Assembly: GCF_004803835.1 (NCBI RefSeq)
Contig: NZ_CP012545.1
Coordinates: 992,001-1,056,000, forward strand
DNA from: Campylobacter sp. RM6914
GTDB lineage: Bacteria > Campylobacterota > Campylobacteria > Campylobacterales > Campylobacteraceae
Length of the DNA stretch: 64,000 nucleotides
Direction: 5' to 3'
The notes below the pieces were generated by a model. It saw only the letters and a program-made list of their open reading frames with translations. It was not told where the DNA came from and made no database searches. A program made the position numbers and the translations under genes. Positions within the stretch are counted from its first letter, which is position 1. Each line of letters begins with the position of its first letter. Positions 21,170-35,945 of this stretch are shown here, one piece after another.

Positions 21170-21679
21170 TTAAATTTTATTTTCTTTAAGCAGGATGTAG
21201 ATGAGTGGGTTCATCGTAGTTTCGCCACGTGCGGCGCACAACACAACATCTTCAAAAAAATAATCACTCGTGCCATAGCTTCTAAATTCATACGCACCAA
21301 ATCCAAACATCATCGGCGTCATCTCAACCCTAGAATACCAAGCCCTTCTTGCATCGATATACTTCTCGCTATCTTGCGAATAAACCCAAAGCATAATGTC
21401 ATCTTTATTTTTCTGACGTATAAGCCAGATAAATGAATTGCCGATATCGTTAAAAAAGTAAGTATCGCCGTTTGGCATTACAGCTTGAGCCGTATTATAA
21501 AGATCGGCGATAAGCGTCTTGCTTTCTGTGCAAAGGTATTTTCCAAGCTCGATCTCAAGTGGTTTTTTCTCAAGATTTCCATGCCTGACTACAACACTAC
21601 CCTCTTTTACATCAATACTAACATAAAGCAAGGTAAAAACACAAAAAAGAAGAGTGAGTGCAAAAATTTTCTTTATCAT
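21170..21679 (-). CDS. NosL-like periplasmic protein, last gene of the mcc operon
   Basis: 169 residues from the preferred start (MIKKIFAL, 21679), which forms an ATGA overlap with the stop of the preceding gene; a longer frame to 21751 exists but lacks support. An N-terminal hydrophobic anchor is followed by a NosL-like region: FFNDIGNSFIWL, LWVYSQDSEKYIDARRAWYSR and EMTPMMFGFGAYEF. These resemble the NosL pattern in which an Asp-Ala segment and 'TPMGYGfgAF' occur, while the Cu-binding CxxC-M motif near the N terminus is absent. Likely a copper-handling accessory for MccA (inference). Confidence 0.6.
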   Translation of the reverse strand: MIKKIFALTLLFCVFTLLYVSIDVKEGSVVVRHGNLEKKPLEIELGKYLCTESKTLIADLYNTAQAVMPNGDTYFFNDIGNSFIWLIRQKNKDDIMLWVYSQDSEKYIDARRAWYSRVEMTPMMFGFGAYEFRSYGTSDYFFEDVVLCAARGETTMNPLIYILLKENKI

Positions 21680-22629
21680 AGCAACACTCCGATCGTAAAG
21701 TAGTATTTTGCAACATAAAACGAGCATATAGCCACATTTATAAGTAGCCAAAACGACGAAAGGCGAAGTAAATGAGTGTAGTCATATCCCGTGATAAGCT
21801 CGACCAAAAAAGGAGTAATACCGTAAAAAATTCCCAAAAACAGCGAACCCCAGATAGGATAACCAATGTAATAATACTCGCCCATTAACATACAATACGG
21901 GCATTTGTGATTAGGCTGTTCATAGACATAAAGCCCAAAAAAGTAAGTTATAGCATAATAAGCGATAAATAAAAACAATAAATTTAAGGCAAAACTAGCC
22001 ATTGACTGCTTTAAAAAATTTAAAACCGCGATAGAGGCAAATATAACATAAAAAAACATCGCTAACATCGCTTGAGTGTAGCCAAAAGGTAGCTTAGGAG
22101 CTTGAAAAACAACAGAACAACAAAAAACAGGAACACTTAAAGGTATGTTTGTAAAAAACAAAATTTCAAGCACAAATTCACCCAAAATAGCACAAAACAG
22201 TATGCTAAAGATGATGTATTTTCGCTTTAAAAACGGAAAATTTATCGCTTTTAAGTCAAGATAGTTTACAACAAGCCAAAGTCCAAGTCCAAATATAAGC
22301 AAGAGTTTTAGTAAAAACAGTATATTGCCGTATTCGTTTGAGCCGATAACTCCTGCCGAGCACATAGCGCCAGGCACTACGGAAGAGAGTTTATTTAACG
22401 AAAGAGCAAAGAAAACAAACAAGATAATCTTGCAAAATATAGTAAAAAACAAGATCGTATTTACAAGATAATTATGCTTTTCAAGAGTGTATTGTAAATT
22501 TGTAGTTGCATTAAAGTCCCAGTAGCGTAAAATGCGCACGATATAAAACTGTGAGATAGCCATCAGAACGATAACTATAAGCTCGGCAAACAAAAACGCA
22601 ATTACATCATTTGATAAAAATACACTCAT
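21676..22629 (-). CDS. polytopic membrane protein of the mcc accessory block
   Basis: 317 residues with 7-8 predicted membrane helices. Cysteines cluster in VFCCSVVFQAP and in NHKCPYCMLMGEYYYIGY; the CPYCM motif could bind Cu(I) or undergo thiol chemistry. It overlaps the ABC ATPase gene and the NosL-like gene by 4 bp each, so all three are co-translated. I know no established name. A role in copper or thiol delivery to MccA is inference from position. Confidence 0.65.
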   Translation of the reverse strand: MSVFLSNDVIAFLFAELIVIVLMAISQFYIVRILRYWDFNATTNLQYTLEKHNYLVNTILFFTIFCKIILFVFFALSLNKLSSVVPGAMCSAGVIGSNEYGNILFLLKLLLIFGLGLWLVVNYLDLKAINFPFLKRKYIIFSILFCAILGEFVLEILFFTNIPLSVPVFCCSVVFQAPKLPFGYTQAMLAMFFYVIFASIAVLNFLKQSMASFALNLLFLFIAYYAITYFFGLYVYEQPNHKCPYCMLMGEYYYIGYPIWGSLFLGIFYGITPFLVELITGYDYTHLLRLSSFWLLINVAICSFYVAKYYFTIGVLL

Positions 22630-33841: not shown

Positions 33842-35266
33842 TTATGAATTTAAAAATAAAATTGTAAATATAACACCGTCTTTTGTGTTTTGCACTGTTA
33901 TAAAACCGTTATTTTTTTTCATTATAACCTGACTCATGTATAATCCCAGACCGCTGCCTTTTTCTTTAGTGGTAAAATTTGGGTTAAATATCTTTTTTAT
34001 CACGCTTTTATCGATATTTCCAGCGTTATTTTCTATGGTTATCATACGCGATAAAGAGTTCTTAAAAGAGCAAATTTTAACCCTTTTTTCGCCTAGATGC
34101 GACTGTCCAAAAGCCTCTTTGGCGTTACTTATAATATTTATTAAAATTTGTATTATTTCATTAATATTTCCAAAATGAGAGAAATTTTCCTTAATTTCTA
34201 CATCTAATTTTATAACATGATTTTTAAGAGCTGATTTTAAAATTTTTTGAGTCTGCTCTATCGCTTCAGCACTGGTAAATTCGCGCTTTATAGAATTTGG
34301 ATTGAAGAAGTTTTTAAAGTCGTTTATAGTTTGAGACATAAATTTAACCTGCTCATCTACATCCTTAATCTTCTCATTTAATTTTTCTTTTGTTAATTTT
34401 CCTTTTTCATTATAAAGCTCTAAATTTATAAGCGTTGAGCTTATTTGTGCCAAGGGTTGCTTCCACTGATGCGAGATGTTGCCTATCATCTCTCCCATTG
34501 AAGCAAGGCGACTTTGATGTATCATAAGTTGTTCGTTTTGCTCTTTGATCTTTGCCATTTTTTCATGTATCTTGTATACTAAAAATACAAGAAGCACAAA
34601 AACTACAAAAAGTGCCACACTGCTTGTTATAAGCTCATTTGCGTGATACGCAAGGATGTTTTTGATGGGAATTTTAAAGGATATCATCGCTATCGTATCG
34701 CCGACCTTACCCTCAAAGTCCTTTGAGCTGCCGTATTGCTCCATCATCTTTTTAGGAACCGAATTTATGTTATGGCAAACCGCACATGAGGCTTGAGAGT
34801 TTTTAACAGGAAGTCCCACATATATGTAAGAGGTGTTGCCGTCTTTGATTACCTGCGAGAATTCCTCATATCTTTTCTCTTTAAAGCCTTCTAAAATTTC
34901 ATTCTCAAACTCATCTCCCTCATGCTCTGGGTTTAAAGGATTGGTCGCGACAAGCTTATAGTCGTAATTTATCTTATTTTTTGAAAGTTGGATATTATAA
35001 ATTTCACGTGTGATATATGATGACGACTGAAGTCTTGGGTCGAAAAAATCATCTTTTATAACGCCTTCCACCTTAAGCTCGTCTATCAAAGGACGCTGCA
35101 CTATCGAGATATAATCCCGCACCGCATTCATCGTATCAAGCACATAAAATGCCTCTTGCTTAGCGTCTTTTAACGCAAGCTGTCTATAAAAGCTAAAGAC
35201 AAGCCCAATGATGATTATATAAAGGATAGTAAAGATAGCCACCACAAAACGAAATCTATATTTCAC
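33842..35266 (-). CDS. mccS: sensor histidine kinase with periplasmic c-type haem motif (MccS)
   Basis: About 474 residues from a GTG start (VKYRFRF, 35266) overlapping the regulator gene by 11 bp; a TTG at 35311 would overlap by 56 bp and lacks a ribosome site. One helix, a periplasmic DUF3365/Tll0287-type domain with haem c motif CAVCH (about 151-155), a second helix, then DHp with GNISHQWKQPL (phospho-His) and an HATPase_c domain (GSGLGLYMSQVIM). The Wolinella mcc operon is controlled by a two-component pair, to which this corresponds by position. The haem could read redox state or bind sulfite/NO. Confidence 0.85.
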   Translation of the reverse strand: MKYRFRFVVAIFTILYIIIIGLVFSFYRQLALKDAKQEAFYVLDTMNAVRDYISIVQRPLIDELKVEGVIKDDFFDPRLQSSSYITREIYNIQLSKNKINYDYKLVATNPLNPEHEGDEFENEILEGFKEKRYEEFSQVIKDGNTSYIYVGLPVKNSQASCAVCHNINSVPKKMMEQYGSSKDFEGKVGDTIAMISFKIPIKNILAYHANELITSSVALFVVFVLLVFLVYKIHEKMAKIKEQNEQLMIHQSRLASMGEMIGNISHQWKQPLAQISSTLINLELYNEKGKLTKEKLNEKIKDVDEQVKFMSQTINDFKNFFNPNSIKREFTSAEAIEQTQKILKSALKNHVIKLDVEIKENFSHFGNINEIIQILINIISNAKEAFGQSHLGEKRVKICSFKNSLSRMITIENNAGNIDKSVIKKIFNPNFTTKEKGSGLGLYMSQVIMKKNNGFITVQNTKDGVIFTILFLNS

Positions 35267-35945
35267 AGATGTAACCAACCCCGTATAAATTTCTAATCGT
35301 ATCTTTGCCAAGCTTTTTACGAAGCTCTTTAACTATGGTTTTTATCGCTTCTTTGCTTGGCTGGTCAAATTCCCAAAGATAGTCAAATAACTCTTCATAA
35401 GTGACTGCCTTGTTTTTATTTTTCAAAAAATACTCAAGTAAGCGACTCTCGCTTTTTGCAAGGTGACAGGCAGTATCTTTTATGTAAATTATCTTTTTAG
35501 CAAAGTCATATCTTGCTTGGGTATTGATATTTAAAATTTGTCTATCACCTCCAAGCTCACGAGCTATATCTTTTAATGCGGCGATAAAAGCCTCTTTATC
35601 ATAGGGCTTTGGTAAAAACCTAGTTATCTTAAGCTCTACCGCCCTCCATAAATACTCTTGCTCGGTATGACTTGAAAGTATGATGATGGGTATGTTTTGG
35701 TTGTTTTGACGAACTCTCTTTATCACCTCAAGCCCGTCCATATGAGGAACCGTTATATCAAAAACAAGCACATCATAAAAACCGCTTGTGGCTAGATCAA
35801 GTGCCTCAAGTCCATCTTCTATACCCATAACTTCGCCAAAAAACAGCTCTAAAGTTTCGGTTAAATTTTTTAAAATTCCAACTTCGTCCTCTAAACAAAG
35901 AACTTTTTTATCCGATAAAATTTCTAAAATACTGCTATTTGGCAC
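35256..35945 (-). CDS. mccR: OmpR-family response regulator (MccR)
   Basis: 229 residues. Receiver domain with acidic pocket LEDE (about 18-21), phospho-acceptor Asp63 in VFDITVPHMDG and Lys in LPKPYDKEAF; C-terminal winged helix (about 130-228) with RKKLGKDTIRNLYGVGYICEI. It probably activates mccA on signal from the kinase encoded next. Start is a GTG preceded by AAAGGG. First gene of the mcc transcriptional direction. Confidence 0.85.
   Translation of the reverse strand: MPNSSILEILSDKKVLCLEDEVGILKNLTETLELFFGEVMGIEDGLEALDLATSGFYDVLVFDITVPHMDGLEVIKRVRQNNQNIPIIILSSHTEQEYLWRAVELKITRFLPKPYDKEAFIAALKDIARELGGDRQILNINTQARYDFAKKIIYIKDTACHLAKSESRLLEYFLKNKNKAVTYEELFDYLWEFDQPSKEAIKTIVKELRKKLGKDTIRNLYGVGYICEI

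Follow-up and report, generated by a model that had tools for sequence, protein, structure and literature searches.

The octahaem cytochrome MccA of Wolinella succinogenes, whose structure has been solved (4rkm, 4rkn), carries seven CXXCH haem motifs and one CX15CH motif, and two of its cysteines, residues 399 and 495, are what we take to be the ligands of Cu(I); the numbering of these ligands reportedly comes from Hermann et al. 2015. The Wolinella mcc cluster also encodes an FKBP protein, NrfC/D-like proteins, a CcsA1-type haem lyase and a two-component system, as does the locus described here. That locus, the mcc block of Campylobacter sp. RM6914, lies in a window of 64,000 nucleotides (contig NZ_CP012545.1, positions 992,001 to 1,056,000), and coordinates below are those of the window. 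Attachment of the CX15CH haem in Wolinella needs a haem lyase, and Shewanella SirA is matured by Ccm, not by a CcsA1-type lyase (PMC6976685). A sulfite reductase has already been reported in C. concisus (PMC3765806), and MccD has been counted in 15 epsilonproteobacterial species (PMC8076601). A literature search for MccR or MccS of Wolinella found no paper.

On the grounds of homology and gene order we consider it very highly probable that the block is an orthologue of Wolinella mcc and forms a complete operon for a respiratory sulfite reductase. Its function is best read as the respiratory reduction of sulfite to sulfide, and it was fair of an initial annotation of this DNA to suggest possible sulfite respiration in the strain.

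The cytochrome carries most of the argument. In a search of solved structures, the sole match to the mccA product was Wolinella MccA (4rkm/4rkn), with 1266 bits against 4rkm over query residues 1-684, the full length; 521 of the 684 aligned positions (76.2%, counted from the alignment) are identical. The low identity to MccA that the initial annotation had named beforehand as grounds for giving up the identification was not found. Its description of a 686-residue cytochrome with seven CXXCH motifs and one CX15CH motif was borne out when the positions were read from the open reading frame: the former lie at residues 139, 298, 335, 356, 414, 458 and 480, and the latter (CARTSWADLDMVENKGCH) at 558-575. 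The protein has a signal peptide up to about residue 25, which holds one of its 19 cysteines; 16 others belong to the eight haem motifs, and the remaining two, Cys395 and Cys491, align on Wolinella residues 399 and 495. The CX15CH motif, all other haem motifs and both aligned copper-ligand cysteines are kept between the two enzymes, and we saw no functional difference between them. The attribution of the DNA to Campylobacter is supported by a tree.

The surroundings of mccA point the same way. Thirteen genes form a block (21170-35945; Table 1) whose ends coincide exactly with those first assigned to the locus, and whose order is kept, complete or nearly so, in Campylobacter concisus, C. showae and their relatives, in Sulfurospirillum and in another family of the order. 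With full-length homology and a gene order conserved in several genera, chance can be ruled out as an explanation of the locus. Pfam and NCBIfam models placed the accessory genes (FKBP, NrfC, NrfD, CcsBA and the two-component system) where the initial annotation had put them; the NosL-like protein, the FtsX-type ATP-binding cassette (ABC) transporter, the Sel1 protein, the 317-residue membrane protein and orf193 are additions to that list. In the loci of the C. concisus/showae/rectus group, MccA is 78-82% identical to the one described here, the 13 genes have the same order and the same promoter motif is present; divergence is in sequence only. All 21 relatives compared have a CXXCH where MccS has its haem site. 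Between purH and mccR a terminator-like stem (36118-36085, minus strand; a consensus match only) would set the block apart from the purine genes, and an Rfam scan of 17000-40000 returned no RNA family.

Table 1. Features of the mcc locus of Campylobacter sp. RM6914 (window coordinates)
Feature	Position	Strand	Evidence and remarks
mccR, OmpR/PhoB-type response regulator	35256..35945	-	Pfam Response_reg, Trans_reg_C
mccS, sensor kinase with periplasmic Tll0287-like domain and one c-haem site (CAVCH)	33842..35311	-	Pfam
Putative MccR operator and mccA promoter	33796..33830	-	CCC/T-tract direct repeat followed by extended -10
mccA, octahaem c haem-copper sulfite reductase	31677..33737	-	686 residues, ATG start; structure match and motif reading
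mccB, FKBP-type peptidyl-prolyl isomerase	30843..31613	-	Pfam FKBP_C, FKBP_N
mccC, NrfC-like four-cluster Fe-S protein	30141..30827	-	NCBIfam best match NrfC, below cut-off
mccD, NrfD-like quinol-oxidising membrane subunit	29168..30139	-	NCBIfam best match NrfD, below cut-off
ccsA1, fused cytochrome c haem lyase (CcsBA)	26480..29152	-	890 residues; NCBIfam; presumed dedicated to CX15CH haem
Sel1/TPR-repeat periplasmic protein	25635..26468	-	Pfam Sel1, six stretches
MccL (name used here), tandem NosL protein	24581..25624	-	Pfam NosL, 155 bits, two stretches; presumed Cu(I) chaperone
ABC permease, FtsX type	23297..24406	-	Pfam FtsX
ABC ATPase	22626..23300	-	Pfam ABC_tran
317-residue membrane protein, no known family	21676..22629	-	Conserved cysteines GAMC, VFCCS, CPYC in alignment
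orf193, membrane-anchored divergent NosL-like protein (probable)	21170..21694	-	About 170 residues; hhalign, Foldseek

Searches for other sulfite-reducing enzymes covered the whole genome; the window lies in a single contig of 1.78 Mb. There was no match to the NIR_SIR domain (PF01077) of the sirohaem sulfite reductases Dsr, Asr and CysI, nor to the pentahaem cytochrome NrfA (PF02335), which leaves MccA as the only sulfite reductase of the kinds searched for. The genome has two haem lyases (Cytochrom_C_asm), one of them ccsA1, and its one NosL gene is located in the mcc block. Molybdopterin oxidoreductases are found at twelve loci; among them are NapA, a PhsA thiosulfate reductase (see below), formate dehydrogenases and a number of S/N-oxide reductases. 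Four molybdopterin oxidoreductases contain an in-frame TGA, likely read as selenocysteine; two of these match formate dehydrogenase models and the other two look alike by eye. A TorA/BisC-family reductase (contig positions 1762302-1763662) is split over two frames with in-frame stops and is apparently a broken copy.

A plausible scenario for the operon, drawn largely from homology, is as follows. Formate dehydrogenase or another dehydrogenase would reduce menaquinone, and the membrane protein MccD would take electrons from the quinol, which would reach MccA in the periplasm by way of the Fe-S protein MccC. MccA, with its eight c haems and its site of haem and Cu(I), would carry out the six-electron reduction of sulfite to sulfide, as the identity to the Wolinella enzyme and the kept ligands suggest. 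By analogy with Wolinella, CcsA1 may be responsible for the CX15CH haem and the general lyase for the remaining seven. Cu(I) would be loaded by MccL together with orf193, the two ABC proteins and perhaps the 317-residue protein. The c haem of MccS would sense a periplasmic signal, and MccR would turn on a single promoter ahead of mccA through the CCC/T repeat. Two points weigh against this reading: the copper role given to the accessory genes derives from NosL homology and position, and the assignment of the copper ligands depends on the residue numbers 399 and 495 attributed to Hermann et al. 2015, though the alignment does put cysteines there. Nothing in the sequence contradicts it.

Among the copper-loading candidates, orf193 had no confident Pfam match. 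A profile comparison with MccL by hhalign aligned the NosL core (P 2.8e-4, probability 41%), and in a Foldseek search of its low-confidence model (pLDDT 60.6) against 350,542 chains the top four hits were NosL of NosDFYL, with E values of 0.07-0.27, none of them significant on its own. Of a CXXC near its N terminus, just the first cysteine is kept in Campylobacter. We take orf193 to be a probable divergent NosL. For the 317-residue membrane protein there was no Pfam match, and the fold search gave nothing useful.

It is also possible, if only as a tentative proposal, that the system serves chiefly to complete thiosulfate respiration, as its second half, or to detoxify periplasmic sulfite, rather than for growth on sulfite from outside; the enzyme and the electron path would be the same. 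The genome encodes a full-length PhsA thiosulfate reductase (1152.5 bits against a cut-off of 694), the products of which are sulfide and sulfite. PhsA may feed sulfite to MccA, and thiosulfate could thus go fully to sulfide in the cell. Also in favor of such a role, a second and weaker match to the mccA promoter motif (see below) is present in several Sulfurospirillum genomes; in the two of five such regions that were examined in detail, it precedes a gene of the coproporphyrinogen III oxidase family, with a PhsA cluster a few kb away. On the other hand, the NrfD-type quinol module beside MccA points to a connection with the quinone pool, and in this genome phsA is not linked to the mcc operon. 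A thiosulfate or detoxification role is compatible with respiratory sulfite reduction, and the two are not exclusive.

How the operon might be controlled is suggested by the 104 bases that separate mccS from mccA, which contain CCCCCTCTTTTTACCCCTTTTTATTGTTAGTATT. Two C blocks (33829-33825 and 33816-33813) are followed by an extended -10 element, TGTTAGTATT (33805-33796). When 14 loci from three families were anchored at TAnnATT, they aligned without gaps, and roughly one helical turn separates the C blocks; column counts reveal an invariant G, which makes the -10 an extended one. A first version of a search pattern had given no match. With the final pattern there is a single occurrence in this genome, even allowing one mismatch. 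Within the genus it is present in 35 of 37 genomes with the type of MccA described here (type I), in none of ten with a second type (type II, below) and not in the one genome without MccA; since the pattern was built from the same loci, its presence there is partly by construction, while its rarity elsewhere and its absence from type-II genomes are not. Order-wide, 30 of the 31 genomes that match carry type-I MccA, and a reversed control pattern had no match among the genus genomes.

The arrangement fits an activator of the OmpR type sitting over the -35 region, and for this reason we propose that MccR binds the CCC/T repeat, which would make it a putative operator. We found no report in the literature of a conserved control site at the mccA promoter. 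Less likely, in our view, the repeat is a plain promoter or transcript feature retained by descent. The derivation of the pattern from these same loci, the putative status of MccR binding and the spacing of the C blocks, which varies slightly among species, would all fit that explanation. It accounts less well for a pattern that occurs once in this genome even with one mismatch, is shared by three families and is missing with type-II mccA, and for flanking columns that are much less conserved than the repeat itself.

The best models of its neighbors (NrfC and NrfD), and the presence of NapA in a genome without NrfA, where a nitrite reductase could be wanted, might suggest that MccA acts mainly on nitrite or hydroxylamine. 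This is very improbable: MccC and MccD score under the curated cut-offs (210.6 bits against 377.6 for NrfC and 253.4 against 347.6 for NrfD), MccA retains what characterizes the sulfite reductase of known structure, the pair of copper-ligand cysteines included, and with NrfA absent the NrfC/D-like proteins cannot serve a Nrf enzyme, so a nitrite reductase reading was rejected.

As to distribution, 47 of the 48 genomes of the genus have an MccA. In a sample of 87 genera from the order, 15 gave matches at E <= 0.001; the weakest of these matches are short haem-motif stretches and not real MccA. Given the genus-wide count and the published C. concisus enzyme, the locus is less surprising than the initial annotation implied. 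It is an mcc locus of the ordinary kind for the genus, and what is added here is the promoter motif, orf193 as a NosL-like protein and the type-II MccA of sister species.

Type-II MccA, present in ten genomes of the genus, is 47-48% identical to the type-I protein described here. It belongs to the MccA family and has cysteines at the copper positions, as type I does, and it carries a CX17CH haem motif in the nine genus loci inspected and in two loci outside the genus. A literature search for this motif found nothing. In a tree of 44 sequences the CX17CH group occupies one fully supported branch far from type I. The gene that follows type-II mccA encodes, in all eleven loci, a product of 660-730 residues; scans of two of these products showed rhodanese, multihaem and cytochrome b561 regions, and each of the remaining nine shares 49-97% identity with one of the two over nearly the whole length. 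Beside type-II mccA the genes of the mcc block (mccBCD, NosL, mccRS) are absent, except for CcsBA in the two loci outside the genus, and no genome of the genus has both types.

SirA of the Shewanella oneidensis type is an MccA family member about 50% identical to MccA here, with seven CXXCH and one CX15CH; in Shewanella loci its copper positions hold a cysteine (first) and a CEN cysteine (second). Unlike mccA here, sirA is followed by a rhodanese gene; the reductase gene is followed by one for a separate rhodanese-like protein, of about 150 residues, in loci of Shewanella, Sutterella, Edwardsiella and Acidobacteria. We lean, with some reserve, towards the view that sulfite respiration in the genus uses two alternative systems that exclude each other and have separate deep origins. 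Type I would combine the CX15CH enzyme with an NrfCD-type path, a haem lyase and copper-loading genes of its own, and an MccR switch that acts on a single operon at the CCC/T repeat; type II would combine the CX17CH enzyme with electron delivery through a membrane-bound fusion of rhodanese, multihaem and cytochrome b561 parts.

Two neighbors of the block deserve mention. A chemoreceptor gene (19519-21111, plus strand) that adjoins it encodes a Tll0287-like periplasmic domain with one CXXCH haem site (CLACH). It was considered as an operon member and rejected, as no close orthologue stands beside mcc in the inspected relatives. Methyl-accepting chemotaxis proteins about 31% identical to it are found on the mccR side in three inspected relatives, and there is no pairwise similarity between the chemoreceptor and MccS. 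Beyond it, 17853-19034 (minus strand) encodes a 393-residue membrane protein of no Pfam family, NnrS-like by eye.

A gene for turning sulfite into hydrogen sulfide is thus near universal in this Campylobacter genus. The promoter motif offers a short target for testing how sulfite is sensed, and the type-II system would provide a test of how a CX17CH haem gets attached and how rhodanese is tied to sulfite reduction.
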